The notes beneath the pieces were generated by a model. It made no database searches and was not told the origin of the DNA. It saw only the letters and a list, made by a program, of their open reading frames with translations. Below, piece after piece: positions 4,369 through 25,385 of a stretch of DNA of 37,697 nt. The position numbers and the translations under genes were made by a program. Positions within the stretch are counted from its first letter, which is position 1. The number at the start of each line of letters is the position of its first letter. This DNA is from a virus, in IMG/VR virus record IMGVR_UViG_3300027370_000020, positions 1-37,697 of that record; one strand, given 5' to 3'.

Positions 4369-4679
4369 CAGAAGGTCAACCTCGTGTTCTCGTAAGGATT
4401 CACATCATCACCGTCGTTCGACTCGGAGAGGATCGTGATAACGAGCTGAAGGCGATGTTGCATGGCCGCGAGGAAATGTTTTTCAAACTCCTTGGGCGAC
4501 GAGTATCTCTCACGCTTCGGCAACGGGAAATGCAGCAAGACGCGCTCCATCATCTGATCGAAGGCGAGGCGTGTCTCGGACTCTCGGTCTCTACGGTGAC
4601 GGCGACTGATCGCTTGTTGCCGACCAGCTTCGTGAAGTGCCTCAGCAGCCGCTTTGATTCTTGTGTCAAGGTTGTCCAT
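4368..4679 (-). CDS. Hypothetical phage protein, 103 aa
   Basis: Not recognised. The product is mostly helical and charged: an N-terminal Ala/Arg helix (MDNLDTRIKAAAEALHEAGR), a middle segment LAFDQMMERVLLHF, and a C-terminal helix FEKHFLAAMQHRLQLVITIL. Its ATG overlaps the stop of the terminase nuclease frame (TGATG), and its own stop overlaps the next start in the same way. Lying directly after terminase, it occupies the place where a portal gene is normally found, but it is far too short to be one. Confidence 0.58.
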   Translation of the reverse strand: MDNLDTRIKAAAEALHEAGRQQAISRRHRRDRESETRLAFDQMMERVLLHFPLPKRERYSSPKEFEKHFLAAMQHRLQLVITILSESNDGDDVNPYENTRLTF

Positions 4680-5530
4680 CAGAAGCCTCCCGAAAGTTTT
4701 GGCTCGCCACGAAGGAAGTCGTTGAGCGAGCAGTCTTCATCCATTTCACCGACGCCGAGGTCCCCGCTTCCCAAGCTCCAGAATCCCGCTGGAGTCTCAT
4801 CGGCGTTGCCGGGTCGGAATTTGAAGTTCGGTTTACGAAAATCGTTCGCGGTGCCGGTCGCGGTGAGCGCTCGCATCCCGTGAACGAACGCATCGACCGA
4901 GTGATCTCGCGGCGAGACGGGGAAGTTCGCCATATCTGTGATGAACTGCTCGTTCCACTCGCCCTTTAGCAACGACACAGAGCGAGCCGCCGTGTAAGGC
5001 TGCACACTCATGGCGCGGATCGGCTTCGACTTGACTGGCACGGCCTTTCCAACCGGGATTCCTTGCCGCTCAAGGAATTGAATGAGGCCGATACCGGACC
5101 CGGCGTCCTCAACGACGCACAACGGAACGTTGCGAAAGGTTCGAGCCTGCACTCGGAGCCGCTCGACGACGATCTGTGGCAACGTGTCCATGCCGAACTT
5201 GCCGGAGAAACAATCGAGCACGAGGAACGAGCCATCCGCCATCGCCGCGATAGGGACGTTACAGCTCTCGTCGTTCGCGGCTTCCGTCTTCGAGCCGGTG
5301 TCCCACGGCGACACGATGAGCATGACCTGATCGACGTTGAGCGTGTCGATGATCTGAAAATCACCGGGTGGGAACATCTGGTGAGCGCGGTCGAGCGGGT
5401 TCTGCTGATAGAGCGGTGAGAAGTGCATCCCGAGGTCTGCTCGCTTGCCCTCAAATTGTTCCGCGCTGAACGACCACGGTTGACCGGGGATCGCGAACAG
5501 GCTCGGGTATGGGTCGAAGTAAGTAATCAT
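4679..5530 (-). CDS. Terminase large subunit, C-terminal nuclease part
   Basis: This 283-residue frame holds the nuclease half of a phage large terminase, which cuts concatemeric DNA at packaging. Expected signatures are visible: LYQQNP near the N-terminus, which normally joins ATPase and nuclease; the RNase H-fold acidic residues in SPWDTGSKTEAANDES, in FLVLDCFSGKF, in VEDAGSGIGLIQF, and in the late SPRDHSVDAFVHGMRAL motif. The ATG at 5530 overlaps the stop of the ATPase frame as ATGA, and GAGGA lies about 9 bases upstream, so separate translation is possible. Equally, one missing or extra base near 5530 would fuse the two frames into an ordinary terminase. The reading frame continues open upstream to 5665, which fits either view. 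Confidence 0.85.
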   Translation of the reverse strand: MITYFDPYPSLFAIPGQPWSFSAEQFEGKRADLGMHFSPLYQQNPLDRAHQMFPPGDFQIIDTLNVDQVMLIVSPWDTGSKTEAANDESCNVPIAAMADGSFLVLDCFSGKFGMDTLPQIVVERLRVQARTFRNVPLCVVEDAGSGIGLIQFLERQGIPVGKAVPVKSKPIRAMSVQPYTAARSVSLLKGEWNEQFITDMANFPVSPRDHSVDAFVHGMRALTATGTANDFRKPNFKFRPGNADETPAGFWSLGSGDLGVGEMDEDCSLNDFLRGEPKLSGGF

Positions 5531-6204
5531 ATTCTGGTGTCCTCGATATAGCTCGATCTCCCATCTGTGTTGATAGCCGCGAGACACAGATAACGGAACT
5601 GCCGTGATTTCTTGTTGCCACGGGCGCGAGCGAGCAAACGTCCGATGAGATCGTCCAGGTGCCATCGCGTATGAATGACGACGATCCTTCCGTTCGGAAG
5701 AAGCCGCGTCTCAGCGGCGGCGAGAAAGTTTTGCCACACGCGCTCGCGGATCGTCTCGCTGTACGCCTCGCTGATGTTTTTCAGTGGGTCATCGACGAGG
5801 AGAAAGTTGGCTCGTTGGCCGGTGACCTGTCCCATGATTCCCGCCGCGTGCAAGCTCGGTCGTCCATCCCCCCCGGCGATGGTGAACTGACTCTCGGTTG
5901 CCTTCGTGAATTCCAGGCGCGGCAGATCGGGATGCTGCAAGGTCCGCAACACGTTCCCCGAAGACAGCCGTGCGAGCGAGTCGCTGTTCGCGAGTTCGAT
6001 AATGTGACGGCGCGGGTTCTCGTGTAAAAGCCACGCGGCGAAGTCGATCATCACCATCTGTGTCTTCCCGGTTCCGGGTGGGACGGCAATCGCAGCGTCG
6101 TACTCGCCGCGAGCCACACCTTCGAGTTCATAAGCCATCGTGCGATGCGGAAAATCGAAGACGAACTCGGGATGAACGGTCGAACAGAAGTCGAGAAATT
6201 TCAC
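5527..6204 (-). CDS. Terminase large subunit, N-terminal ATPase part
   Basis: The packaging motor ATPase. Walker A is AVPPGTGKT near residue 45, Walker B is FLLVDDPL near 140, and the coupling region reads VIHTRWHLDDLIGRLL near 190, all typical of the family. The start is taken as GTG at 6204, which overlaps the stop of the small terminase and has AAGGAG upstream; the open frame extends to 6363 but lies within the small terminase gene there. The frame ends in an abrupt stop at 5527, just where the nuclease domain should begin, and the nuclease continues in another frame from ATG 5530. It is thus either half of a naturally split enzyme or the 5' part of a frameshifted gene. Confidence 0.87.
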   Translation of the reverse strand: MKFLDFCSTVHPEFVFDFPHRTMAYELEGVARGEYDAAIAVPPGTGKTQMVMIDFAAWLLHENPRRHIIELANSDSLARLSSGNVLRTLQHPDLPRLEFTKATESQFTIAGGDGRPSLHAAGIMGQVTGQRANFLLVDDPLKNISEAYSETIRERVWQNFLAAAETRLLPNGRIVVIHTRWHLDDLIGRLLARARGNKKSRQFRYLCLAAINTDGRSSYIEDTRI

Positions 6205-6737
6205 GGCAACAACTCCTTCGGCGCGGGATGCCACAGTGGGGAATCCTTCGGCGGTTGCGGCATCGGCTCCGGTTTCTTTCCGGCGCGAAGCCGCTCGCAC
6301 ACTTCGGCGATGGGACCCTTGATCTCCTCGAAGCTCAGGTCGCGGGAGATGAAGCAGAACCACTGATACGGTCCGAGCTTCTGTGGATCGGCCTCGACGT
6401 TGACGCTGAGTGATTCCGTTTTCTTTGGTGCGTTCAATCCGAACAGCTCAGAGAAGTCGGACATGATCGCACGCCACGCGTTGGCCCGATCAGGAGCTAG
6501 ATCACCGGTGAGAACGTTGTCGGCTGATTCGAGCAAAGCGCGACCGACCCGGCGCTTTAGCTCTTTGATCTCCTCCGAGTTCTCCAGCACGAAGAGATCG
6601 TCGAGCGCCGACAGATCACGCCACAGTGTCCAGCGAGAGACCTTTAACTTCTCGGCAATCTCGGTTTTCGGAGTTCCATTCTTGATCTCCTCGACGACCT
6701 GTCGTCGGCGAGCGTCGCGCTTCGGTTGCTTTTTCAT
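6201..6737 (-). CDS. Phage terminase small subunit
   Basis: 178-residue protein directly upstream of the large terminase, in the standard small-large order. A helix-turn-helix lies near residues 20-45 (TPKTEIAEKLKVSRWTLWRD), suited to recognising the packaging site, followed by helices likely to form the oligomer core (EIKELKRRVGRALLESADNV) and a Pro-rich tail ending at KELLP. ATG at 6737 is chosen because it overlaps the preceding stop as ATGA and has AGGAGG just upstream; the frame extends nine codons further without support. The family assignment rests on HTH, size and neighbourhood. Confidence 0.78.
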   Translation of the reverse strand: MKKQPKRDARRRQVVEEIKNGTPKTEIAEKLKVSRWTLWRDLSALDDLFVLENSEEIKELKRRVGRALLESADNVLTGDLAPDRANAWRAIMSDFSELFGLNAPKKTESLSVNVEADPQKLGPYQWFCFISRDLSFEEIKGPIAEVCERLRAGKKPEPMPQPPKDSPLWHPAPKELLP

Positions 6738-6928
6738 CGCGCCTCCTGAAGTTTCTTCCACCACTCCGTGACAGCGACCTTGTCGAATCTTAGATTCCCG
6801 TTGACGCGAACGAATGGAAGCGGATGCTTTTGTTTTGCACGAGTCCTCGACTCCGTCATGGAATAAATCTGACGGCGGTTCATCTTCAGCAGAGACGCGA
6901 GTTCATCGACGGTTAGAATCTCACCCAC
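6734..6928 (-). CDS. Excisionase-type helix-turn-helix protein, 64 aa
   Basis: A small winged-helix DNA-binding protein of the MerR/Xis type: LTVDELASLLKMNRRQIYSM forms the HTH, and VRVNGNLRFDKVAVTEWWKK the wing and closing helix. It starts with GTG at 6928, overlapping the preceding stop by eight bases. Proteins of this kind act as excisionases or as regulators of element genes. Here it lies between the primase-helicase and the small terminase, far from IntA, so a control role over packaging genes is as likely as excision. Confidence 0.72.
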   Translation of the reverse strand: MGEILTVDELASLLKMNRRQIYSMTESRTRAKQKHPLPFVRVNGNLRFDKVAVTEWWKKLQEAR

Positions 6929-7153: not shown

Positions 7154-9187
7154 TCAGTATTCCGGCGCGTCGTGTGTTTTTCGCGCCTCAAATTTCTCAA
7201 ACATGTTTTCGTTTCCAGCGATTCCCCAATACCACTTACGGCCCTTCTGAAAAGAGCGAACACCAGCGGCAGCTCTCACCCGGTCCGCACACATCGAGAT
7301 GTCAAGATCGCCCTCCTTCATAAAGGACTGACATTCGGTCGCGGCCTTCGCTCCACTTTCGAGGAATGCCCTCAACACAGGAGCGGCCTTCTGTATCAGG
7401 CCGAGGTTTTTGCGCGAGTCAGGATTGAGTGCTTGCGACGCGGTCGCCTTCGTCATCCCATCCCAAACGATCTTGATGACCTCGCTCATCTCTCGTTCGA
7501 TCTCGACGTTCACAACTTCGGTGTGATAGCGGAAGGATTCGTGTCCCTTCGGTCCACGGATCGGAGCCATGATGTGAGCGTAGTGGCCCTGGAGATTGGG
7601 ATCATCGGAACATTGCCACGCGCTTCGCGCCACGCCGACAAAAGCACGCGCACCCATAACGCGGGACATCGGGTCCTGACTCTCACCTTTGTTCAGGTGA
7701 GACACGGTGAGGACATTGAAGCGAAGCTCCTGTGCGAGCATCACCAGCGGCATCAAAGCTTCGCGGACATCCTCTTCCGCATTCATCTTCAGCTTCCCGA
7801 GGTAATTCGTGATCGGGTCAATCACGATCAGGCCGAGGTGCGGCGCGAGCTTCCGCGCTTCGGCACAGATGAGCGCGATGTCTTCCTTCAGGGCGAGCAT
7901 TCGCTGATGCGTCTTGTCGTCTTTCGATACCTGCACTCCGGTGATCGGGTGGAAGAACAGGTCGCATCCACCGGCGAGGTCGAAACGCGGAAGGATGGTG
8001 TCCTGTAAATCGTCTTCGTTGTTGAGCATGATCGAATGCAGAGGAAAATTCCGCATCTTCTGACCATCCGGCCACGTCCCATATCCGTCGTGTCCTGGAA
8101 GCTTCGACATGCGAGCGCAGAGGTCGATGGTGAGTGGAGATTTTCCTTGTGACGACTCACCGCTGAGGTTGAGCATCCCCGCTTCTCTGAGGACCGGCTT
8201 CCAACACCACCGCTCCGGCATTCGCAGTGTCCAGAGGGGATCGGGCATCACCAGAGAGCTGACCTCGGGAGAGCGCGACTGACTCTCACGGGGTGGAACC
8301 TTCCGCGCCTCTTCAATCGCGTTCGCTAGTTCCTCATGTTTGCGGCGTTCCCACTTGTTCTCGCCGCTCGGTCCCCACTTCCCCTCTGTGTACAGCTTTG
8401 ATTGTTTGAAATCGGCCTCCATTTTTTCGGGATCACAGGAGTTCTTGAGGGCGCTTTTCACGAGCAACGAGGCGACGGCTGAACTCGGGTCAGGAAACTC
8501 GGACTCAGGCTTCGCTATCATGTCCGCGAGTGTGAGATGGCTATAAGCCGACTTGCCGCGCTTCCCGGCGACCTCAACCGCCTGATCTTTTCCCGCGACC
8601 GAGGTGTACAGCTTTTCGAGTCCCGTTCTATCGAGAATCCCACCGTCAAACTCACCCCACGCAACTCCGGTGACGGTGACGTAGTTGGACCAAAACAGCT
8701 CGATCTTCTCGTGATCGGCTCCGACGTTCTTCACGACTTTCTTTTTGCCTGCACCGGCCATCCGCTCCGCGAACGCGCCGAGGACCTTCTGATCGACTCG
8801 AACCCATAGGTGAAGGCCGTGATGCGTGACTCCGGGTGATCGTTCCGCGTAGAAGATGAAGCCCTTCCAGGTATCAACGAAAACCCGCGCCCACAACTTC
8901 AGCTCGCCGTTCGGCTGAAAGCAATTGTCGAGATCGACGCAAAGGACGGAACCTCCGGCGAGGTTGTAGCCGACGAAGTCGTATCCCTTCTCATTCGCGA
9001 ACGCGATGGCTTCTTCGAGCGAGACGAGGACATCCGGCGTGTACTTCCAACAGTCGTGAAGCTTGCCGGTGACCACAGAGGTCGGAGGCTTCGTTGCCTG
9101 ACCTTTGTCGTTGATAACGATCTTCGTCACCACGTACCGCCGAGTGCGGAAGATCGGCGGTACGCTATCGACTTTCAGTTCGATCAT
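7154..9187 (-). CDS. Bifunctional primase-helicase (phage/plasmid replication protein)
   Basis: 677 residues with two enzymatic parts. The N-terminal part resembles the primase-polymerase fold found in phage and plasmid replication proteins: VLCVDLDN with D85 and D87, followed by GVTHHGLHLWVRV and an IELFWSNYVTVTG region. The C-terminal part is a RecA-fold ATPase of the RepA/AAA_25 type: Walker A GESSQGKS near residue 345, NNEDD near 385, Walker B LGLIVIDPITNYLG near 455, then VSHLNKGE and GARAFVGVARSAW. Such proteins prime and unwind DNA at the element origin. The start overlaps the ParB stop by 4 bases. With no DnaB or loader in element A, this is its probable replicative helicase. Confidence 0.82.
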   Translation of the reverse strand: MIELKVDSVPPIFRTRRYVVTKIVINDKGQATKPPTSVVTGKLHDCWKYTPDVLVSLEEAIAFANEKGYDFVGYNLAGGSVLCVDLDNCFQPNGELKLWARVFVDTWKGFIFYAERSPGVTHHGLHLWVRVDQKVLGAFAERMAGAGKKKVVKNVGADHEKIELFWSNYVTVTGVAWGEFDGGILDRTGLEKLYTSVAGKDQAVEVAGKRGKSAYSHLTLADMIAKPESEFPDPSSAVASLLVKSALKNSCDPEKMEADFKQSKLYTEGKWGPSGENKWERRKHEELANAIEEARKVPPRESQSRSPEVSSLVMPDPLWTLRMPERWCWKPVLREAGMLNLSGESSQGKSPLTIDLCARMSKLPGHDGYGTWPDGQKMRNFPLHSIMLNNEDDLQDTILPRFDLAGGCDLFFHPITGVQVSKDDKTHQRMLALKEDIALICAEARKLAPHLGLIVIDPITNYLGKLKMNAEEDVREALMPLVMLAQELRFNVLTVSHLNKGESQDPMSRVMGARAFVGVARSAWQCSDDPNLQGHYAHIMAPIRGPKGHESFRYHTEVVNVEIEREMSEVIKIVWDGMTKATASQALNPDSRKNLGLIQKAAPVLRAFLESGAKAATECQSFMKEGDLDISMCADRVRAAAGVRSFQKGRKWYWGIAGNENMFEKFEARKTHDAPEY

Positions 9188-10455
9188 CGACCGCTCCTTT
9201 GAGGCTCGATGACCGGCGCGTCTTTCAACGCGGCGATTGTTTCGCGGACGCGATCACAGATGCCATCAAGAGACGCGATGAGCTTCTTCTTGTCCGAGGC
9301 TGTGATCTGTGCGTGTCGGCGTTCTGCCTTTGAGAGGCCGAGGAAGTTGTTTCGCACCATGCAAAAGCGGTCGAATGTTTTGTTTCCCTGAGTGACGACA
9401 CTGTTCACCCACCGAACCCGGTCTTCCTCGGCGCGGCGAGCTTTCTGTTCCTCATCCTTCCGCTTCTGCTCGGCCTCGATCTCTTTCCGCCTCGCTATCG
9501 CGTCCTTCGTGCGAGTGACCTGACGACTGGCGTCCTTGACCTCGGCCTTCGCCTCTTTGATCTGTTCCTTGACCTTCTCCTCTTGCTTCGGCGCGAGCTT
9601 CTGTTGCTGTTTTTTCTGAAGCTCTTTGAGGTATTCGGCGGCCTTCTGTTCGCGCTTCTGGCGTTCGATCAAAGCCTGCGTGTTGTCGGCCTCGACGCGT
9701 TTTGCTTCTTCCTTCTGAAGCTCCGTCTTGTGCGCGTGTCTCGTGGCTGACTTCGCGTAGTCATCGAGGATGGACTGAACGACGATTCGGCCTGATCGCT
9801 TGTCACGGTAGGATTCGAGACGGCTGTACTCCCACACTTTCAGTTCGACGAGTTCGAGGAAAGCGAAAGCGGCGCGGACATCATCATTCGATTCCTTGTC
9901 GTTCTTGCAAGTGCGACCCAAGAACCGCGCCACAGAGAGCATGTTGTAGGCAAACCGGGAATCCCGGTTTGCTCCTCTCACGAAGCCGGGAGCGACGCGA
10001 ATAGCGTTGGAGTTGGATGGAATTTCGAGCTTGATCTCTCCGCTCGCGATGGCGTTGACCGTGGCCTTCACGATCTCCATCGTGAACTCGAAGCCGTGAC
10101 CATAAGCATCATCGTGATCGCGGGACATCCGCTGAAGAACTTCCGCGTCCGACAGTTTCACAACGTTGAAGTCGAACTCCTCGTTTTTTCCGTACTTGCG
10201 GCGAAGAGCTTCGAGGCGATGATGACCGAACACGATCTCGAATTGTCCCTTCGAGTTCTCGCGGACGATGATGTTCTTCCAGAAGCCGGTTGTCTCGATG
10301 GACTCGACGAGCTTTACGATCCGGTTCTCATCGAGCGGGTTGATGGTGAAGTCTCTAAAGGGACTGGCGACGACACTCGCGAGCGCGATCTTCGAGCCTC
10401 GCGCTGAGGTCACAGAGGCGGGATGAGACTTTTCGAGTTGTGGTGATTTCGACAT
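9184..10455 (-). CDS. ParB-like nuclease-fold protein with long coiled coil
   Basis: The N-terminal 110 residues match the ParB/Sulfiredoxin-type fold: NPLDENRIVKLVESIETTGF, then the diagnostic FGHHRLEALRRKYG near residue 80. A middle helical region (VVQSILDDYAKS) could bind DNA. From about residue 245 to 345 there is a long Lys/Glu/Gln coiled coil, followed by a C-terminal helical domain. No ParA gene is present, so plain plasmid-style partition is unlikely; it may bind the repeat cluster upstream of its own gene and act in replication or regulation. The ATG at 10455 is embedded in a 9-bp hairpin, with GGGAG in the loop as ribosome site. First gene of the element A operon. Confidence 0.75.
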   Translation of the reverse strand: MSKSPQLEKSHPASVTSARGSKIALASVVASPFRDFTINPLDENRIVKLVESIETTGFWKNIIVRENSKGQFEIVFGHHRLEALRRKYGKNEEFDFNVVKLSDAEVLQRMSRDHDDAYGHGFEFTMEIVKATVNAIASGEIKLEIPSNSNAIRVAPGFVRGANRDSRFAYNMLSVARFLGRTCKNDKESNDDVRAAFAFLELVELKVWEYSRLESYRDKRSGRIVVQSILDDYAKSATRHAHKTELQKEEAKRVEADNTQALIERQKREQKAAEYLKELQKKQQQKLAPKQEEKVKEQIKEAKAEVKDASRQVTRTKDAIARRKEIEAEQKRKDEEQKARRAEEDRVRWVNSVVTQGNKTFDRFCMVRNNFLGLSKAERRHAQITASDKKKLIASLDGICDRVRETIAALKDAPVIEPQRSGR

Positions 10456-10692: not shown

Positions 10693-10721
10693 AGTAAAAC
10701 ATGAGGGTTTATGACTGTCAA
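10693..10721 (-). promoter_or_regulatory. Candidate promoter for the element A replication operon
   Basis: On the minus strand TTGACA (plus positions 10716-10721) is followed after 17 bases by TTTACT (10693-10698). The -35 box is perfect; the -10 box is weak. It points towards ParB and the primase-helicase. One arm of the 9-bp inverted repeat at 10707-10748 lies in the spacer, which suggests repression. Confidence 0.5.
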
Positions 10722-10748
10722 CAAATATTCTTGTGTGAGGTCATAAAC
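10707..10748. promoter_or_regulatory. Inverted repeat overlapping the promoter
   Basis: GTTTATGAC (10707-10715) and GTCATAAAC (10740-10748) are perfect 9-bp arms separated by 24 bases, covering the promoter spacer and the region upstream of its -35 box. The arrangement is that of paired half-sites for a dimeric regulator. Confidence 0.55.
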
Positions 10749-10795: not shown

Positions 10796-10986
10796 GTCAG
10801 ATCGTCAATACGGTGTGTCCTGTGCCACCATGACGAACTGACGAACTGACGTTGTGAAAACGTAACTTTCAGAAAGAAAAGAATATAGTAAGGTTTATAT
10901 TTGCTGAAAAACACTCAAAAAGGCTCAGTTCGTCAGGCCGTCAGTTCGTCAGGATCACACAGGACCCTCTGTGTTGACGATCTGAC
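10796..10986. repeat. Nested inverted-repeat cluster of TGACGAAC octamers (origin-like)
   Basis: A 190-base region with dyad symmetry at several levels. Outer arms: GTCAGATCGTCAA (10796-10808) and TTGACGATCTGAC (10974-10986). Next: TCCTGTG (10818-10824) and CACAGGA (10958-10964). Next: octamer TGACGAAC twice in tandem plus TGACGTTG (10831-10854) on the plus strand, and on the minus strand TGACGAAC, TGACGGCC, TGACGAAC between 10953 and 10926. The centre (about 10855-10920) is AT-rich. Octamer iterons around an AT-rich core beside a primase-helicase gene and a ParB-like gene suggest a replication origin or partition site. Confidence 0.7.
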
Positions 10987-11195
10987 AATCCGGTTTTTCC
11001 GTCACCCTGCACCATGATGCACCGTGTGTCAAATTTTTAACAGTACCAAAGAGTAAACACTTTTGATGCGATTCTCGCGCCGTCGTGCGACAGCCGTGCG
11101 ACGGGCTTCCCGGACCCGCATGAACACTGTGGAGAAAAGGCGCTCACGGTCAACTGAACCGGCGCTCTTGGTCGCGCTCGGCCAACACACGACAT

Positions 11196-11260: not shown

Positions 11261-12466
11261 TCAGCCCTTAAGCATCTTCCGCTCGTACTGTTTCATGCCG
11301 TCCGCGAATCCCTTCTTGGTGATGGTCTGTTTGTACTCGGCGAGCGTTGTGGTCATCGACTTGTGACCGGCGAGAGCCTGAGCAACCGCGTAGTTGCCGT
11401 TCGTGTTTTCGATGACCATCGTGATCGCGCCGCGTCGCCCGTTGTAAAGTCCACCCCACGCCAAGCCCTTCTTGCGGAGCGCGGGAATTACGATGCGATT
11501 GAGAGCGTTGTGTAGATCGAGCGGTGCCGGTCCACCGGCGAGATGCTTCATCTCTTCAGCGCAGCGGTCGTCTGTCAGTACACCTGTGCTCGGGAACACC
11601 CAACCTTCTGCGGGTCGTCCACTCTTATCCCACCACACCGCGAGCGGCTTCTTCACCCGCTTCACGATTGGGATGTCGCGGATCGACTCATCAGTCTTCG
11701 GCTTGCCGACGATGCCGCGCACGACATTGCGGCGCACATGCACGACACCTTTCGAGATGTCCTCCCATCGCAGCGCGTTGCATTCTCCAGGCCGGAGGCC
11801 GAGCCAACAGGTGATAGCAATCACGGCTTGCATCTCGGGATTCGCAACTAAAGCCGAGATCATGTTCTCGACCTGCTCCTGTGTGTACCAACCTTTCGGC
11901 TTGCTCTCCTTGCAGTCCTTCGGAATCTTCACACCGGCCCACGGATTCGCGGGACACAGGTCACGCTGGACGGCTTCGCTGAACATCGCGGATGCGAGTC
12001 CCCGGATGTGACGGAGCGTGTTCTTCACCTGTTTCGTCTTGATGGATGCAAGGAACCGGCGTGCCATAGCGCTGGTGTAGGCCCTGAGCGTCACGTCGCC
12101 GAAGTGTGGCTCCAGGTGTTGCCTCCAGAGCTGTTTGAAGCCCCTGACCGAGCTAGGCCGCATTCCGTGACCTCGGTAGTCTGTCTCACAGTAAGGCAAG
12201 TATTGGCCGGTCCAGAAGTCCGCGATCTTGATGTCGTCGCCGGTCGGCTGGACCTCTGTGTTCACCTTGGCGAGGATGCCGTCCGCGATGAGCTTCACGG
12301 CCTTCGAGGTGGGATACCTGTGGTCCTTGCTGTCTTTGTTGCATAGCTTCTGCGAGCGCAGGACTCGCGTAAGCTTGCCGTCCCGCATCTCGGTCACGTA
12401 ATATCGGAGGTGGAAGGCCCCATGTCTCTCGCAAATGTTCCCTGTCTGATGTCGAGTCGTCATGCA
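11261..12466 (-). CDS. Tyrosine recombinase, integrase of element A (IntA)
   Basis: 401-residue phage-type integrase. An N-terminal arm-binding part (HGAFHLRYYVTEMRDGKL) is followed by a core-binding domain (about 90-190) and a catalytic domain with Arg in GLRPGECNALRW near 224, Lys in the following strand region, YNGRRG near 342 in place of the HxxR box, GHKSMTTT near 366, and Tyr in AEYKQT near 378. Tyr/Asn instead of the first box-II His is known to me in related integrases of this type. The ATG at 12466 is preferred over 12529 because the family-like sequence begins there, though no strong ribosome site is seen. It is read away from the tRNA gene, 100 bases from it, and ends at its own terminator. 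Confidence 0.85.
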   Translation of the reverse strand, partial: CMTTRHQTGNICERHGAFHLRYYVTEMRDGKLTRVLRSQKLCNKDSKDHRYPTSKAVKLIADGILAKVNTEVQPTGDDIKIADFWTGQYLPYCETDYRGHGMRPSSVRGFKQLWRQHLEPHFGDVTLRAYTSAMARRFLASIKTKQVKNTLRHIRGLASAMFSEAVQRDLCPANPWAGVKIPKDCKESKPKGWYTQEQVENMISALVANPEMQAVIAITCWLGLRPGECNALRWEDISKGVVHVRRNVVRGIVGKPKTDESIRDIPIVKRVKKPLAVWWDKSGRPAEGWVFPSTGVLTDDRCAEEMKHLAGGPAPLDLHNALNRIVIPALRKKGLAWGGLYNGRRGAITMVIENTNGNYAVAQALAGHKSMTTTLAEYKQTITKKGFADGMKQYERKMLKG

Positions 12467-12495
12467 GGTATGGTATGGGAAAATGGGACAGAATG

Positions 12496-12519
12496 CGACA
12501 GCACGAACGTGCCGTGTCG
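12496..12519. promoter_or_regulatory. Palindrome between integrase A and the tRNA
   Basis: GCACG-AA-CGTGC (12501-12512) is a perfect palindrome, extended outward by CGACA (12496-12500) and TGTCG (12515-12519). It lies just upstream of IntA and could be an operator, an integrase site or part of an attachment region. No second copy was found in the window. Confidence 0.4.
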
Positions 12520-12566
12520 TCGGAGTCACTCAGAAGTTATTGAAAATGTTGTGTTTGTAATACCGT

Positions 12567-12643
12567 GGCGGCGTAGCTCAGGTGGCTAGAGCGACGGTCT
12601 CATAATCCGTAGGTCCGTGGTTCGAGTCCACGCGCCGCCACCA
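12567..12643 (+). tRNA. tRNA-Met (anticodon CAT)
   Basis: A full cloverleaf can be drawn: acceptor GGCGGCG pairs with CGCCGCC, then A and an encoded CCA (12641-12643); D-arm GCTC/GAGC; anticodon stem ACGG/CCGT around loop CTCATAA with anticodon CAT; T-arm CGTGG-TTCGAGT-CCACG. One T-T apposition closes the anticodon loop, as in elongator tRNA-Met. Anticodon CAT could also be an isoleucine tRNA modified at C34, which sequence alone does not settle. It is the probable integration site of element B, whose integrase frame ends inside it. Confidence 0.95.
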
Positions 12644-13866
12644 ATTAAATCAGTAACTTCTGCGAGTTCTGGCTCTACCTCGTTTTGTGCTTGGTGCGTC
12701 CCAGGTGCGGATTGGTGCGGAGTTGTTTTGTCTTCCTGCTTTGGCAGTTCGTCCAACTTGTCCACGAAAGATACGTTCGCGCCCGGAATCAGGTGACCGT
12801 AAGTGTCGACTGTTACCTGGATAGAGCTGTGCCCCATCTGCTCTTTCACGTACACGATCGAGGCTCCGCTTTGAATCAGCAGAGACCCAAACGTATGCCG
12901 CAGATCGTGAAGCCGGATCTTGCGGATGCCTGCCTTGGTGAGCACCGGCAGAAAGAACCGGTGGTACAGATTGTCGGGGTCGAGGATCGAGCCATCTGGC
13001 GAGGGGAATACCAACTCGTCCGAAACGTCATTCTTTCCCTTGAGGAAAGCTTCCAGCAACCGCTTGTCCCGTACTTCGACGAGCACGCGCCGCAGTTCTC
13101 GTGAAAGGTCGACGCGCCGGCTCTTTTTGCTTTTCGTAGTCGTGTGCTCACGTCGCACGTAGTTGTGTTGCACGATCATGAAGCGGTTGGGATCCTCGTC
13201 ATCCCTGCCGAACTGGATGTCTCCAAACTGCAGGGCGACCAGCTCGCCGCGGCGAAGACCCGCGCGCAGGGCAGTCAGGAACAGCGCCTCGTAATCAGGA
13301 CAGACCACCTTCGCGGCTTCGACGAACTGATGTGCTTCCACTGGCGTCAACGCGACACCCTTAGTCTCTTCGCCCTTCGCTGTACGGGTAAACCGCCCTA
13401 GACGCGCAGCAGGATTCGATTCAAGCACTCCTTCCTCGATTGCGTAGTTGAATATTCCTCGAATCACGCACAGAGCGTTGCGGATCGTGTTGCGCGACAG
13501 CTCCTGGGCAATCAAACCGTTCATCATCGACTTGACATCGTCGCGTTTGATGTCGGTCAGCCGTTTTGTTCCGAACCGAGGTCGAAGGTACTGCCGAAGC
13601 ACTCCCTCATAGCCTTCCGCGGTCGACGTCTTACACTCGACTTGCGCATAATCCTTCAGCCACCGGTCTGCGTAGGCACCGAACGTTGGGGACTGGCGTT
13701 CTGGATCATTCAGAAAGGCAACGTCGCCGAGGGCGAGGCGCGCCTCAATCTCGCGTCGCACCTTTTCCGCGGCTTCGCGGGTGCCAACGCACCGGTTCTT
13801 GCGTCGTCCGTGGTAGTTCACGTACACGTACCACTTGGCGCCGCGCTTTTTAATCTTCACGCCCAT
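12586..13866 (-). CDS. Tyrosine recombinase, integrase of element B (IntB)
   Basis: 426-residue phage-type integrase: N-terminal arm-binding region (KKRGAKWYVYVNYHGRRKN), a core-binding SAM-like domain with FGAYADRWLKDYAQ, and a complete catalytic domain with Arg in ALRAGLRRGELVAL near 201, HDLRHTFGSLL near 319, GHSS near 344 and the nucleophilic Tyr in VDTYGHL near 355. The last 18 residues (GGGAWTRTTDLRIMRPSL) are encoded by the antisense strand of the tRNA gene, and the stop lies in the part coding the D-loop. That is the usual sign of an element inserted at a tRNA 3' end. It is coupled to the excisionase gene upstream (TGATG overlap). Confidence 0.92.
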   Translation of the reverse strand: MGVKIKKRGAKWYVYVNYHGRRKNRCVGTREAAEKVRREIEARLALGDVAFLNDPERQSPTFGAYADRWLKDYAQVECKTSTAEGYEGVLRQYLRPRFGTKRLTDIKRDDVKSMMNGLIAQELSRNTIRNALCVIRGIFNYAIEEGVLESNPAARLGRFTRTAKGEETKGVALTPVEAHQFVEAAKVVCPDYEALFLTALRAGLRRGELVALQFGDIQFGRDDEDPNRFMIVQHNYVRREHTTTKSKKSRRVDLSRELRRVLVEVRDKRLLEAFLKGKNDVSDELVFPSPDGSILDPDNLYHRFFLPVLTKAGIRKIRLHDLRHTFGSLLIQSGASIVYVKEQMGHSSIQVTVDTYGHLIPGANVSFVDKLDELPKQEDKTTPHQSAPGTHQAQNEVEPELAEVTDLIGGGAWTRTTDLRIMRPSL

Positions 13867-15850: not shown

Positions 15851-15894
15851 GTTCCTTTTACGTTCCTCAGTTGTTCCTTTTACGTTCCTCAGTT
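15851..15894. repeat. Two perfect tandem copies of a 22-bp unit
   Basis: The unit beginning GTTCCTTTTACG and ending CCTCAGTT occurs at 15851-15872 and again at 15873-15894, immediately downstream of the stop of the giant gene. TTTACGTTCC or a close form occurs three times in all. It may be a protein-binding array or a replication slippage product. Confidence 0.75.
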
Positions 15895-21900: not shown

Positions 21901-23332
21901 CTGCATCGCTTGTTTCGGTGCCTGATAGCGGTCGCTCTCGGTCAGCATTTTTAATACTGCCTTCAGAGCTTCGAGTGGGCTCTGTTTGGGAATGTTCTTC
22001 AGTTCGAATTTCGGGTTGGCGTACTGGAACTCGTTCACTCCTCGCACTGGGTTGGTTTCCGCCAAGATTTCGGTCAGGTTGATGAGGTCGATTGGCAGGT
22101 TCGATTCTTCCGCCAGTTGTTGGCTCTGCTCGTAGTCCACTTCGATCGCTTGGTTGACTAGCGACTCCAGTTGCAGCCACGCGAGCTGCGGGCTGACTTT
22201 CCCGAGGGCTACTTGAGCGTCGAAGTTCAGTAGCGGGTTTTGATTCGGCGACATTGGGTCTGCTCTCCGCAACGTCCTTGAGCGCATCATACGCCTCTTC
22301 CAGCGTGTTGACGTTGCCTTGTTTTACTGAATCCCAAGTCTTTATCTGGCCTGGGGTGGTGCGGGACGGCGTAGGGCCGTCCTTGTCAATTACGATGATT
22401 CGTGTTGCGAACGCGGTGCCGTATTTTTGGTACTCCTTGCCATGCACCCGGACGTTGGCGCGCACGTTGTATTTTTCGGCAATCCTCTCGAACCATTGGC
22501 CGGAGGATCCGGTTGTCAGGCTGGCGCCCCCGTTCGGCTCATTCGCCTGCCCACCGCCAAGGATTGCAACCAGCCTGCCGCCAGGCTCTAACCGTTGCAG
22601 CGCAGAGTCGACGTGATTGAATCCGTACTGATTGCGATTCTTCGATTCGTATGACTTGATTGCGCTCGCGGAGAATGGGGGGTTCATCAGAACCACGGTC
22701 GGCTTGATCTTCCGATCGAGCAGCGAGTTGATGATCTCGCCATCGTGCGCGGTCGGTTTGTCGAAGCCTACTTCCTTCAGCATCTCCTGTCGGCGTGGCG
22801 CGATTTCATTGACGTGCACTGCCGCGCCGATCGCCTTAGGCCACACTGCGAGACCGCCGTTGCCAGCGGATGGTTCGAGTACAACGTCCGAGGGTTTCAG
22901 CCCTGCGACCTTCGCCGCGACGTAAGATTCAGTAGGTGGTGTCGAGAACTGCTGATTCTTGATCTGCTCCTCGGTGCGTACGCCTTGCGACGTGACACCT
23001 TTCATCAGATTGCGCAGCACTTGCAGCGCTTCAGGCACGGGCCGCGCCATGGTCTCTTTGCCGATGTGAAGGAGGTACTTGTTGACCCCTGCTTCCATAG
23101 CATCAAAGGCGTCCTTCGGACTCCACTTGCCAGAGACGCGCGATGAGCCGAAGTGTTGTTCGGCCAGTTTATTGAACTCTGTGACGTTGCCAAGGGATTC
23201 CCCAGTTCTCAGCTTTTGGAAAACGGCATCAGCCAAGGCAGGAGCGCCACTCGCCTGAGTGGTTGCAGTTTTCCGGTTCGAACTCAACCGCATGAGCGGA
23301 AGACGATTTCGATGCCGATGCATCTGCCCCAC
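15923..23332 (-). CDS. Giant polyvalent protein: N6-adenine methyltransferase + strawberry-notch helicase (DarB-like)
   Basis: 2469 residues. Order: N-terminal helical part (1-110); class I methyltransferase with VVLEPSAGNGGLAV near 150 and catalytic NPPF near 216; Ser/Arg/Pro-rich linker (about 355-520); superfamily 2 helicase with GTGVGKGR near 577, DESHN near 689, SATAATDVIN, then SSAAGTGISLHAG near 1050 and QMLGRTHRSN near 1090; a long coiled-coil middle; and a C-terminal region with hydrophobic helices (FPGWDFSSLKWFLRHPIKTA near 2167) resembling large-polyvalent-protein-associated domains. Phage P1 DarB is a known methylase-helicase ejected to protect DNA from restriction; this is the likely role by analogy. 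GTG 23332 is the longest start; ATG 23323 and 23293 are alternatives. The start overlaps the upstream gene by 104 bases, odd for this tight operon. Confidence 0.85.
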   Translation of the reverse strand: MGQMHRHRNRLPLMRLSSNRKTATTQASGAPALADAVFQKLRTGESLGNVTEFNKLAEQHFGSSRVSGKWSPKDAFDAMEAGVNKYLLHIGKETMARPVPEALQVLRNLMKGVTSQGVRTEEQIKNQQFSTPPTESYVAAKVAGLKPSDVVLEPSAGNGGLAVWPKAIGAAVHVNEIAPRRQEMLKEVGFDKPTAHDGEIINSLLDRKIKPTVVLMNPPFSASAIKSYESKNRNQYGFNHVDSALQRLEPGGRLVAILGGGQANEPNGGASLTTGSSGQWFERIAEKYNVRANVRVHGKEYQKYGTAFATRIIVIDKDGPTPSRTTPGQIKTWDSVKQGNVNTLEEAYDALKDVAESRPNVAESKPATELRRSSSPRESQPAARVAATGVASQPSDRSGLRAEPTTGGRIEPANRPHQPDRNLGGNQPSARSERVPVRQPEIRTEEHSQTEPTRSSEGSIKNADRERPLSGTETSDAALSLGREDSSLVHKEEEDSAAYVAYRPTLKGPAHPANIVETRTMATVPLPKITYQPSLPESVIKEGKLSAVQLEAISIAGQQNSLTLPSGARSTALIGDGTGVGKGRIAAGILWDNFRQGRKRLVWVSEKWDLMQDAIRDLNGIGATDLAKTIKPFGKISAIDPIDHQGILFTTYALIRSADKKGNTRVGQLEHWMRGQDEGDGAYIIYDESHNLKNAVAAQAQQVSQIGAAIKKLMEKNPKIRSASLSATAATDVINLGYLDRLGLWGPGTPFPEGFGEFQAQIASGGMSAMEMVARELKAQGKYVSRTLSYKGVTYQEVEHVLTDEQKALYRTATKAWASVVQQAEDTIKNTTNGGALAKSRFMSLFYGAQLRFFNVLLTTLKIPTAVDEANKALEAGKSVVISLVNTNEAAQNREKNRDRGGEDSDEIPDYDFGPGEMLKDLVREHYPIQQFVDDVDSEGRPIKVPASIKDADGRDIPLTNPEAIKERDKLLAELDRDLKMPANPLDILINSLGGPKNVAELTGRKERYDEASGKFVPRGDPNVKRDEINLSEMRAFQAGKKRVAILSSAAGTGISLHAGNDVANQQKRRHITLQVGWSADKAMQMLGRTHRSNEAHQPEYAMLTSDLGGEKRFTSTLAKRMGSLGALSKGQSNANAGTDLMEKVNFESPEGQKATNAFYNAMLANRSIPGTKLAGMQVLTDLRVLKTDTTTGAKTVPPADRTNVTRLLNRLLALDPDNQNSVYNYFYDIFQAVVQQAVEDGTLDTGVKTLPGDEFSVKEERSISHDPKTNAETFYYPIDAQVRTNRVSLKDLNRILKTNEAKNPAFMRNKAGEVLLRMDASPIIHADGRSTDAFYLVAPGQGNAIKVPHQRLSGWEAVTEKAADEVTEIQNRLARAESELDYSVRTAERYPGQSWAQNRVEQARESIDELRKDLEKSQDLAKDPEAWAKEQWEQQYNQAPAHTTVEHHLIGGAVMRWWNAIHEASPALNIYTTVDSKSGKRVVGVDIPSGEIRSLLSRITGGGSTVNASQLQTDVLKNGLSYTLEKNIQVRQGRINRQPVVQFIPPNQDVANNLKRLGLLYEKGIQPIYYLPNAEGRQERDRVGGILEKILGEYPVKESGGGNIEFEPEGIVSRLAHEESGTATPAALNPARITRIYKDFIDEFIDKKLDLGDKYRRVADHDPVIAKMLKEKDNAPRYFHDKAESNVEQVIRGLNEHQVRLAAMLSDSDAREHLEEHYPDQYDEGREDPAVMDAVNRFKRYQDQLAAIRIKLGWHVRRDLSTFEDEAGRWSVLDRNGEEVDSFDSQKDAQDYVEANGNILDHLKRTYPEHLREPLMGRTDESPSLGASHGGIRPPRPDRKQRLATADYFYAHGAKDFSGYVKSYTQAYHAALNQKIFDSLTGEATKWREGTAKPPQIEYRGTTYYSPEVAKSMKLAKPANRPKEILEYRAYDPAKDDKAMIRDFENGWSTMTTGRPGISPSDRYLAPKEVVDALEHYDMTRGQQENDSIRRFFQDQIVGLFGPNIHVLNIMRRLSHVVGSGPWDPRVWPYYQKLFFSKELRDRMAEGLADDAIDALSKWGTYTNTRDIGSLHTYVLGNMNPANWVRQTVGKFSKGVLFDPKFMGGFGGLDQKSRVLAYDFLRDRAGMGEEEASKNVEDGFGNYNKSNWTERMKRWARALLFPGWDFSSLKWFLRHPIKTALYPALVTLGANLALNAAGKNKDGDKYDFAYLHYGDRKLRTGLVTESLALHIATPVFEAAKAALEGGDAQDVARAAWSGALRGGGGLAGVLRPEIQAAAELLSNRQYLGGTKEIWKPEDAAVPGKVAPTRQLDKALAFSAVKALPAVSRFLDASYDNVDLATGVGSIVGVTNYKSGAEERLKANVAKSMGYSQTLSALAEREPEAAQKFVADPNKAVYLLFHNDLDEIAKDLKNLDTESERVKMAGDLSQKERKDTLKSMEDARKQILISADALNDALDSARLQMKNGK
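21895..22254 (-). CDS. Candidate overprinted gene inside the polyvalent-protein linker, 119 aa
   Basis: A second reading frame on the same strand, shifted by one base relative to the giant gene, runs through its low-complexity linker. The ATG at 22254 has GGAGAG 8 bases upstream. The product looks like a real folded protein: NPLLNFDAQVALGKVSPQLA, then LESLVNQAIEVDYEQSQQLA and NLTEILAET, with regular hydrophobic spacing, Leu/Asn/Gln/Glu-rich, and mostly G or C at third codon positions. In the same stretch the giant protein reads as Ser/Arg/Pro/Glu disorder. Both frames are open throughout. No family is recognised. It may instead be that the linker frame is the passenger, open by chance or under weak constraint. 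Confidence 0.55.
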   Translation of the reverse strand: MSPNQNPLLNFDAQVALGKVSPQLAWLQLESLVNQAIEVDYEQSQQLAEESNLPIDLINLTEILAETNPVRGVNEFQYANPKFELKNIPKQSPLEALKAVLKMLTESDRYQAPKQAMQL

Positions 23333-25385
23333 CCTTTGTTCCTGTAAGTTTGACTACTTCCGTCGTTCCGTCTTTGTGGACGATAGCTACCGAATCAATC
23401 GTGAACTTCTTACTATCAGTGACCGACATCCCTTTATAGCGGTTGGCGGCTTCTGGCTTCACGTAAGCCACAGTGGCGTGCGGCCGAAAATCTGGATGCG
23501 TGGACTTCGCGAAGTCGCCATGTCTTTGAATCTCATCATTCAATCGGTGGAGTTCGGGCGCTTCAATCGGCGCCATGACTACCGCGGCGCCATCGGAAGA
23601 CTTGCTGGGCGGGAATACGTCCGTCTTTCCGAGAGTGGCTTCGAACGGTGCCTGCTCGGACAGGAACTTCTTGATGCCTTCAGTGTCGTCGCCTTGAATC
23701 CCGTAACGCACGGTGACATGGTTGCCTTCTACGTTCTTCCCCTGGCCGGCTAAGTCGGAGTCAGAGATACGAGCCCGCGCGGTTTCGAGAGCTTCATGGG
23801 CTTCCGAACCTTCTGGGATATTGGCTTGGGTGTTGCCGAATTTATGAACTGGCGGTGGCTCGCTGGGCGCAGACGCTACTTGCTCGGCTCTCTGCGGTGC
23901 AGGCGTGGCAATTGGCTTTGCCACTTCCTGAGTCTTCCCGGCAGGAGCAATCTGTTGAGCAGGACGCTGAGGTAATACTGCGGCAGGCTTCGCGGGACCT
24001 TCCGATCGGGCAAGTTCGGTCTCCGGAGTAAAGTCGATTTCGGGCGTTTGTGCGGCAGGCCCAGCGGGAGTACGAGCGTCGTGAATTTGAGGCCGTGATG
24101 CAAAAGGTGCGACGACTGGAGCCGGTGCCGGAGGTTGAGTTACCGGCTTCACTGCTCGTTCTCTGGAGGCCAGTTCCCGCGCAGCGTCGGGGTCGTAGTT
24201 CGTGCGTTCTAAGTATTCGGAGGCTTCCGCTCGAGTGATGGGCGGCTGTCCGGTTCCCAATTGCGGTTGGGTGACAACTGGCTTTGGTCCAACGTACTCG
24301 CCTTCAACTGGCGTGCTCGGTTGCTGCGTTCTGGATTCGCGCCAGATGCGAACGGCATCTCCGAAACTGACAGGATTCTTCTTTAGAATCGCTTGGGCGG
24401 CCGCGCGCGCATCCGCCTCAGAGGTAATCCGTAACTGCTGGCCCTTGGCGTCATCGACAAATCCGCGCTTCCAGAGCAGTGTTGCTAGGCTGTCCTCGAT
24501 GGGTTTGAAGTTTGCAAGTGCGCGTTCATCGGCAGCACCGGAGATTCCACCACCAATCGCACCCACTGTTGCGGCTGCCTCTCCTATGAGTGCTTTCGCT
24601 TCTGGCGAAGCATGAAGTCTGTCCGCGACAACCTCTGCGCCTTTCTGAGCACCGACACTCCCAATGATCGCCTCAATGGTAGTAATCGGCGCAGCCGCTG
24701 CGCCTACGACCATGGCCGGGCGTGCCACCTCTCCCAATCCACCTAGCACCCCAGCACCCGCAGACTCGGCTGTCCGCGCAGAAGGATAGGGCTGTGTTGC
24801 GGTCGGAACCAACGTCTTCAATCCGCTGGCGACTTTCGGGATTCCCGATACGCCGGTTGCGCCCTGCAGTGCTTCGTTAGAGGAAGCATTCAACCGTGCA
24901 GCTTCTTCGCGGCCTTCGATGCTGCCATCATTCGCAATCCAAACCGGCGCTCCGAAGCCGGTCGAGACAAGTGTGACGCGTTGCTTCGGTTCGGCAGGCT
25001 CCCCTGTCGGCAACGTCGGCTGTCCGATTGCTGGGCGCGGAACTGGAGTGATTTGATTCTGTACGGCTGGCGGTGGAGATAGCGGAGTCGGCTTTGCGGT
25101 CGGCTGTAAAGTCAGCGGCGGTCCAGCTTGGCGCTCAACCTCCTGTGTTGCCGTTCCCTGATGCGGCGGCGCGATACTGAGACGATTCTGCGCCGGTGGC
25201 AAGACAGGCGATGGTGTCGGGCGTATTGCTTGATCGATTTGCGCTGAAGCAGAAGCGCGCGAAGTCCACGGTTGAGTTTGTTGAATCAGACTGCCAACCG
25301 AGGGCATTGGCGGGCCTGGCTGCTCGGGCTCAAAATCTACTTGCTGAGATTCCGGCTCGAAGTCGATGGTGGCAGTATCAGGCAT
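23229..25385 (-). CDS. Phage ejection-type protein with C-terminal 2H phosphoesterase domain
   Basis: 718 residues. The first 150 are Pro/Gln/Thr-rich with IDFEPE and VDFEPE motifs and PSVGSLIQ. A hydrophobic, Gly/Ala-zipper region (about 210-290; GEVARPAMVVGAAAAPITTI) could enter membranes. A second low-complexity part contains IDFTPE. The C-terminal 170 residues are a LigT/2H phosphoesterase: NHVTVRYG near 556 and HATVAYV near 636 give the paired HxT motifs. The end carries a third VEFEPE. 2H domains are known partners in phage polyvalent proteins, where they may act on cyclic nucleotide or RNA ends of host defences. The stop lies 104 bases inside the giant gene. Confidence 0.75.
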   Translation of the reverse strand: MPDTATIDFEPESQQVDFEPEQPGPPMPSVGSLIQQTQPWTSRASASAQIDQAIRPTPSPVLPPAQNRLSIAPPHQGTATQEVERQAGPPLTLQPTAKPTPLSPPPAVQNQITPVPRPAIGQPTLPTGEPAEPKQRVTLVSTGFGAPVWIANDGSIEGREEAARLNASSNEALQGATGVSGIPKVASGLKTLVPTATQPYPSARTAESAGAGVLGGLGEVARPAMVVGAAAAPITTIEAIIGSVGAQKGAEVVADRLHASPEAKALIGEAAATVGAIGGGISGAADERALANFKPIEDSLATLLWKRGFVDDAKGQQLRITSEADARAAAQAILKKNPVSFGDAVRIWRESRTQQPSTPVEGEYVGPKPVVTQPQLGTGQPPITRAEASEYLERTNYDPDAARELASRERAVKPVTQPPAPAPVVAPFASRPQIHDARTPAGPAAQTPEIDFTPETELARSEGPAKPAAVLPQRPAQQIAPAGKTQEVAKPIATPAPQRAEQVASAPSEPPPVHKFGNTQANIPEGSEAHEALETARARISDSDLAGQGKNVEGNHVTVRYGIQGDDTEGIKKFLSEQAPFEATLGKTDVFPPSKSSDGAAVVMAPIEAPELHRLNDEIQRHGDFAKSTHPDFRPHATVAYVKPEAANRYKGMSVTDSKKFTIDSVAIVHKDGTTEVVKLTGTKGGADASASKSSSAHAVEFEPENCNHSGEWRSCLG

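Follow-up and report, generated by a model that had tools for sequence, protein, structure and literature searches.

The mirrored octamer array at positions 10796–10986 of the analysed DNA (the window, a stretch of 37,697 nt) is most likely, with a probability of roughly 0.7, the iteron-type replication origin (ori) of a prophage in a soil acidobacterium of the Terriglobales. This assignment is based on comparison: relatives with the same gene order have the same architecture in the same place, built from different words. If each initiator evolves together with its iterons, conservation of the architecture and not of the letters is expected. A first-pass annotation had named an origin or a partition site as candidates. 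The origin is backed by these prophages and by word clusters beside the genes of primase-helicase relatives.

The palindrome of mirrored octamer arrays described in that annotation is real. It forms one continuous, ungapped inverted repeat with arms of 56 nt each (10796–10851 and 10931–10986, 82% complementary), which are spaced by 79 nt around an axis at about 10891 (Table 1). This inverted repeat is the longest of the whole window, and no second array of this sort is present elsewhere in the window. Its inverted-repeat score is 30, compared with a mean of 9.2 (sd 1.1, maximum 13) for 200 dinucleotide shuffles of the surrounding gap, none of which reaches 30. The single-strand fold of the array has an energy of -47.6 kcal/mol (z = -8.5). 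A chance origin of the mirrored array is excluded. The exact 7-mer count of the window array alone is marginal (matched in 2 of 100 shuffles); the case draws its strength from the long inverted repeat and from the comparison, not from this count.

Four exact copies of TGACGAAC and two copies with one mismatch are found within the 191 bp. With up to one mismatch, the order of the units is < >> (81 nt, 69% AT) << >, the arrowheads giving their orientation. The middle unit of the right octamer array (10925–10953) is degenerate. The outer 13-mers GTCAGATCGTCAA and TTGACGATCTGAC match exactly as inverses over 13 bp and contain the one-mismatch octamer copies, which are oriented opposite to the inner sets. 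These outer arms and the TCCTGTG/CACAGGA pair both lie on the common axis, as annotated. The pair TTTCAG/CTGAAA (10867–10872 and 10904–10909), formerly regarded as an inner level of symmetry, is about 3 nt off this axis; it is probably due to chance and was dropped. The AT-rich core was confirmed and is the most AT-rich 79-mer of the window. The array thereby combines three traits of iteron origins: at least three copies of a short word in tandem and/or inverted arrangement, an adjacent stretch suited as an AT-rich unwinding element, and linkage to a putative initiator gene, with the array upstream of the primase-helicase operon and the clusters of relatives beside replication genes. The array has no match in Rfam. 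No exact DnaA box was found, and one near-match lies at 11128. No target-site duplication is visible at the array ends, so a MITE-like insertion is not indicated.

Table 1. Features of the mirrored array and of its surroundings in the window.
Feature	Position	Strand	Basis
Whole mirrored array, proposed replication origin	10796..10986	.	56-nt arms; 0/200 shuffles; architecture also in L215, similar in L105, L101 and L097
Outer left unit GTCAGATCGTCAA, octamer with 1 mismatch, opposite orientation	10796..10808	-	Exact inverse of 10974-10986
TCCTGTG, mirror mate CACAGGA at 10958-10964	10818..10824	.	Common axis
Inner left iteron set, TGACGAAC x 2.6, full letters TGACGAACTGACGAACTGACG	10831..10851	+	TRF period 8, 100% match
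AT-rich core, proposed unwinding element	10852..10930	.	71% AT, rank 1 of all window 79-mers
Inner right iteron set, TCAGTTCG/TCAGGCCG/TCAGTTCG, full letters TCAGTTCGTCAGGCCGTCAGTTCGTCAGG	10925..10953	-	Direct-repeat families and inverted pairs
Outer right unit TTGACGATCTGAC	10974..10986	+	Exact inverse of outer left unit
Smaller separate inverted repeat GTTTATGAC-N24-GTCATAAAC, between array and ParB-like gene	10707..10748	.	Inverted-repeat list
ParB-like protein, 423 aa; ParB_N-like N-terminus, long charged helical C-terminal part	9184..10455	-	Pfam, PHROG
Primase-helicase: Prim-Pol-like N-terminus, RecA-like AAA_25 helicase, C-terminal winged helix; proposed initiator	7154..9187	-	AAA_25 5.7e-17 (Pfam)
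TerS and TerL, TerL in two overlapping frames	4679..6764	-	Operon direction shared; syntenic in L097, L215
Tyrosine integrase of the array's element	11261..12529, likely start 12466	-	Pfam/PHROG integrase
tRNA-Met, likely attachment locus of the integrase family	12567..12643	+	tRNA found 5' of integrase homologs

The array is located in an 805-bp non-coding gap between the stop of the integrase gene (11261) and the start of the ParB-like gene (10455), and no convincing gene is present in this gap. The adjacent operon encodes the ParB-like protein, the Prim-Pol/RecA-like helicase/winged-helix protein, TerS and TerL. The helicase gene itself is 1.6 kb away from the array. The window is an IMG/VR virus contig with prophage genes, including a tape measure candidate, the terminase in two frames, the primase-helicase, the ParB-like gene, the integrase and the tRNA-Met. 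Beyond the tRNA-Met follow a second integrase-led element and then apparent host genes (partly annotated by eye). At the right of the window, a DksA-type protein is 77% identical to that of a Terriglobales MAG, so the host is an acidobacterium of this group.

The two TerL frames (5527–6363 and 4679–5665) overlap, whereas the homolog in L097, one of the syntenic elements described below, is a single open frame. The split in 4679–6363 is either a frameshift in the prophage or a sequencing error. Searching viral contigs with TerL gave distant relatives only (22–35%). Two tyrosine integrases flank one tRNA-Met in the window (11261–13866), and the second integrase gene runs into the tRNA. L093 has a homolog of the first integrase and, next to it at the same tRNA, a remnant of the second (C-terminus 65% identical); these are tandem elements at one site. 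The integrase gene is flanked on either side by short tandem repeats, both in the window (AATGCGACAG at 12482–12501, GTGCGACAGCC at 11084–11102) and in L097 (TTAGCCGACA, at about 7370–7395 and at 9003–9024). They are possibly integrase arm-type or operator sites. Elsewhere in the window, a 718-aa protein (23229–25385) has a 2'-5' RNA ligase-like domain with a weak match to anti-CBASS Acb1 (E 8.5e-4) and may be a counter-defence protein. A perfect 22-bp tandem duplication (15851–15894) lies just downstream of a 2469-aa gene.

Five elements with a homolog of the integrase have a replication gene downstream. Four of these, all from Terriglobales (L097, L101, L105 and L215), have word clusters in both orientations between the integrase and the replication gene. 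The words comprise 7–10 bp and are different in each element. In L215, which encodes a DUF3854/DUF5906 protein, TerS and TerL, AGCTTGG words are arranged as << >> (80 nt, 66% AT) <<< > <. The layouts of L215 and of the window are almost superimposable, with unrelated words. A similar layout is found in L105 (replication-like ORF, TerS-like gene), where TGACGACA words form << >> (42 nt, 62% AT) < > < >. In L101, GTGTCCG words surround an ATATA-rich core beside the gene of an AAA_25 helicase; L097 (integrase, D5/P4-type helicase, TerS, TerL) has a cluster of the word GGCCCACC. No cluster was found in L103, in which a related AAA_25 protein follows the integrase. Conservation of the array near homologous operons had been named as a check. 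The octamer itself is not conserved there, but the architecture is, with other words in the same place. The syntenic elements do not share one family of replication genes: AAA_25, D5/P4-type and DUF3854/DUF5906 are represented, and one gene has no Pfam match, so the link between helicase and iterons is one of analogy, not of shared descent. In L094 (11520–11734, reverse-strand numbering) and L098 (13387–13549), word clusters in both orientations are located inside short genes. The resemblance of these genes to lambda O-type initiators is limited to position and size; the lambda origin likewise lies inside a gene.

In the primase-helicase of the window, the helicase and the winged helix are clear, whereas Prim-Pol is seen at the family level and weakly in the protein itself. 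Among solved structures, the family profile has matches to ORF904 of pRN1 in its Prim-Pol part and to RSF1010 RepA in its helicase part. An AlphaFold model from 19 sequences contains the winged helix at residues ~591–656 (pLDDT ~80–92), and the N-terminal third is poorly predicted. Foldseek aligns the modelled RecA-like domain with DnaB, RecA and RadA with weak scores.

Homologs of this protein (18–25% identity over the alignment) were inspected in 17 Terriglobales loci. A cluster was defined as a 7-mer that occurs four or more times within 260 nt, in both orientations, a threshold that was set after seeing examples; the same rule was applied to 3' flanks, 5' flanks and background tiles. Clusters are present in the 500 bp 3' of the gene in 10 of 17 loci, compared with 0 of 16 for the 5' flank and 5 of 442 background tiles (Fisher p = 5e-13). 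Some clusters start in the coding 3' end, and the count was limited to the 500 bp that follow the stop codon. The words differ between the loci, and most clusters include unusually AT-rich DNA. No cluster was found near the primase gene in the other 7 loci. Clusters directly 3' of AAA_25 primase-helicase genes are seen in L046, L107, L108, L109, L111, L112, L115, L120, L121 and L122, each with its own 7–9 bp word. These clusters 3' of the Terriglobales genes are candidate origins. There is no word cluster 3' of the window's own primase-helicase gene; its array is upstream of the operon, whereas the clusters of the relatives are mostly directly downstream of the gene. Searches of viral contigs with the primase-helicase and the integrase gave no homolog close enough for an alignment of the array itself.

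Among known systems, the best reading is by analogy: the array would work like the origins of SaPIs and pRN1. It is a full member of neither type, since it is placed differently from either and pRN1 lacks iterons. In the SaPI ori, two iteron sets flank an AT-rich stretch of ~80 bp, which closely resembles the 81-nt gap with 69% AT in the window. Both elements encode a replication helicase with a C-terminal DNA-binding domain and have short iterons beside the operon. The SaPI ori is directly downstream of rep, whereas the window array is upstream of the operon; furthermore, the window helicase is of the RecA-like AAA_25 type and not of the SaPI Rep families, and the two iteron sets of the window mirror each other and are each accompanied on the outside by an inverted unit. 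The C-terminal domain of SaPI Rep binds the iterons beside the rep gene, and two hexamers are presumed to occupy these short iterons (PMC7581432). In pRN1, the origin is a stem-loop of ~100 bp with a 21-nt stem and a 58-nt loop, of which the structure and not the sequence is conserved (PMC4234260). The replication protein of pRN1 combines Prim-Pol, helicase and winged helix, a layout also seen in the window protein, there with a weakly matched Prim-Pol part, and the window family profile matches ORF904. Its helicase belongs to superfamily 3, however, and its iteron-free stem-loop is downstream of the gene, whereas the stem-loop of the window comprises 191 bp, has a stem of tandem octamers and is 5' of the operon.

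Two further systems are comparable in part. The alpha protein of phage P4, an integrative element at a tRNA, joins primase and helicase in one protein and binds short repeats of either orientation, and a P4-type helicase is present behind such a cluster in L097. P4 needs two sites (ori and crr), whereas the window has one array and a helicase of another family. The oriV of RSF1010 has iterons and AT-rich DNA, and its hexameric helicase RepA is matched by the window family profile. Its iterons are 20-bp direct repeats, not mirrored octamers, and are bound by the separate protein RepC.

As an iteron origin, the array would function as follows. The octamers would serve as iterons in two mirror-image sets that face each other across the AT-rich unwinding element of ~80 bp, and each set would have one inverted unit on its outer side. 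The initiator that binds the octamers would be encoded by the element itself; the winged helix at the C-terminus of the primase-helicase is the most likely candidate, and the ParB-like protein is another possible reader. Two helicase assemblies could then form in opposite orientation on the two sets, and because these are mirror images, the helicases would load in opposite directions. The AT-rich core would open, and priming of bidirectional replication after excision would fall to the Prim-Pol domain or to host enzymes.

The main rival to an origin is that the array is a host-type dispersed repeat of Terriglobales, an intergenic hairpin-forming octamer element without special role in the prophage. 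Such repeats exist. In the genomes G278 and G100, arrays of TGACGAAC, TGACGAAT and similar words lie between ordinary genes, often as inverted pairs with loops of 20–50 nt, and an 18-mer octamer pattern (up to 3 mismatches) is matched 99 times in G278 compared with 3 in the control. The 21-mer TGACGAACTGACGAACTGACG, on the other hand, is found with up to 2 mismatches in just 4 of 397 Terriglobales genomes, between ordinary genes, and the window holds no second copy of the array. The loops that were read in G278 are not AT-rich, whereas the window core is the AT-richest stretch. A dispersed repeat also leaves unexplained the position shared with syntenic prophages, the AT-rich core and the match to L215. 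This explanation is unlikely. The only viral contig that matches the exact 21-mer (L004) has three octamers in one orientation between phage genes and is unrelated.

The chromosomal repeats were observed as dispersed mirrored octamer arrays at dozens of sites in G278 (L051, L055, L057, L128 and other loci) and at L048 in G100. In G278, they consist of TGAnGAATTG units with an inverted mate 20–50 nt off, and look like an undescribed intergenic hairpin repeat family. Their octamer unit (TGAnGAAy) and inverted pairs are similar to those of the window; they differ from it by many copies per chromosome, short loops that are not AT-rich and no replication genes noted nearby.

A regulatory role in place of an origin is improbable as well. 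The arrays would then be operators for a repressor or a regulator of the ribbon-helix-helix type that controls the early operon, with DNA looping. Tandem 8-bp boxes are typical of ribbon-helix-helix operators, as for MetJ, and the array lies upstream of the operon; its region is overlapped by two promoter-like sites on the minus strand. These sites are weak (9 of 12), and an ordinary operator-like inverted repeat is nearer to the gene at 10707–10748. This repeat has a TTGACA-like hexamer on the minus strand (read by eye) and is possibly the operator/promoter of the operon. Furthermore, the clusters of the relatives are downstream of the helicase gene, an unexpected place for its operator, and a core that is AT-rich and constant in length is not characteristic of operators. 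An operator role in addition to the origin role is possible.

The partition site of the first-pass annotation is not supported. As a parS-like centromere, the array would be bound by the ParB-like protein and segregate a plasmid-like phase. Iteron-like centromeres exist in plasmids, and the neighbouring gene encodes a ParB-like N-terminal domain (PHROG ParB-like, 2e-10). The match to Pfam ParB_N (E 1.2e-4, 22.5 bits) is below the curated cut-off of 26.3 for a canonical ParB domain. No parA-like ATPase was matched among the window proteins scanned against Pfam and PHROGs, and the syntenic elements that bear arrays yielded no ParB-like gene. The position of the element beside an integrase and a tRNA indicates an integrative element. 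Altogether, a centromere is very unlikely. Relatives of the ParB-like protein were found neither in viral contigs, genome contigs and phage records nor in the 397 Terriglobales genomes, and an AlphaFold model of the protein alone is uninformative (pLDDT 50).

An attachment site with core and arm-type sites of the integrase is excluded by position: attP sites have arm-type repeats on both sides and the integrase gene adjoins the array, but an intact two-armed attP is not expected within an integrated element, and in the window and in all integrase homologs with a detected tRNA (up to 49% identity in Terriglobales), the tRNA is at the 5' end of the integrase gene in constant orientation, which places the attachment site on the opposite side of the integrase from the array; attP, attL or attR would be sought at the element end, at the tRNA.

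The array is thus best regarded as an origin, a variant of the iteron origins. A broader generalization is tentative and rather doubtful: prophages of Acidobacteriota might share one origin blueprint, consisting of an outer inverted unit, a tandem set, an AT-rich core of ~80 bp, a mirrored tandem set and a second outer inverted unit. Unrelated helicases would use it with their own words of 7–10 bp, so that the geometry is kept while word and initiator are swapped; the reader in the window could then be the orphan ParB-like protein.

If the origin is correctly assigned, it would provide a replication origin for a group of acidobacterial prophages. About fifteen pairs of word and initiator would become directly comparable, and it could be asked which winged-helix residues choose which 8-bp word. 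It would also provide a replicon for vectors in a phylum with few genetic tools. The main interest lies in an origin geometry that is conserved despite the change of word and helicase family, which would raise the question why the geometry persists while both of these change.
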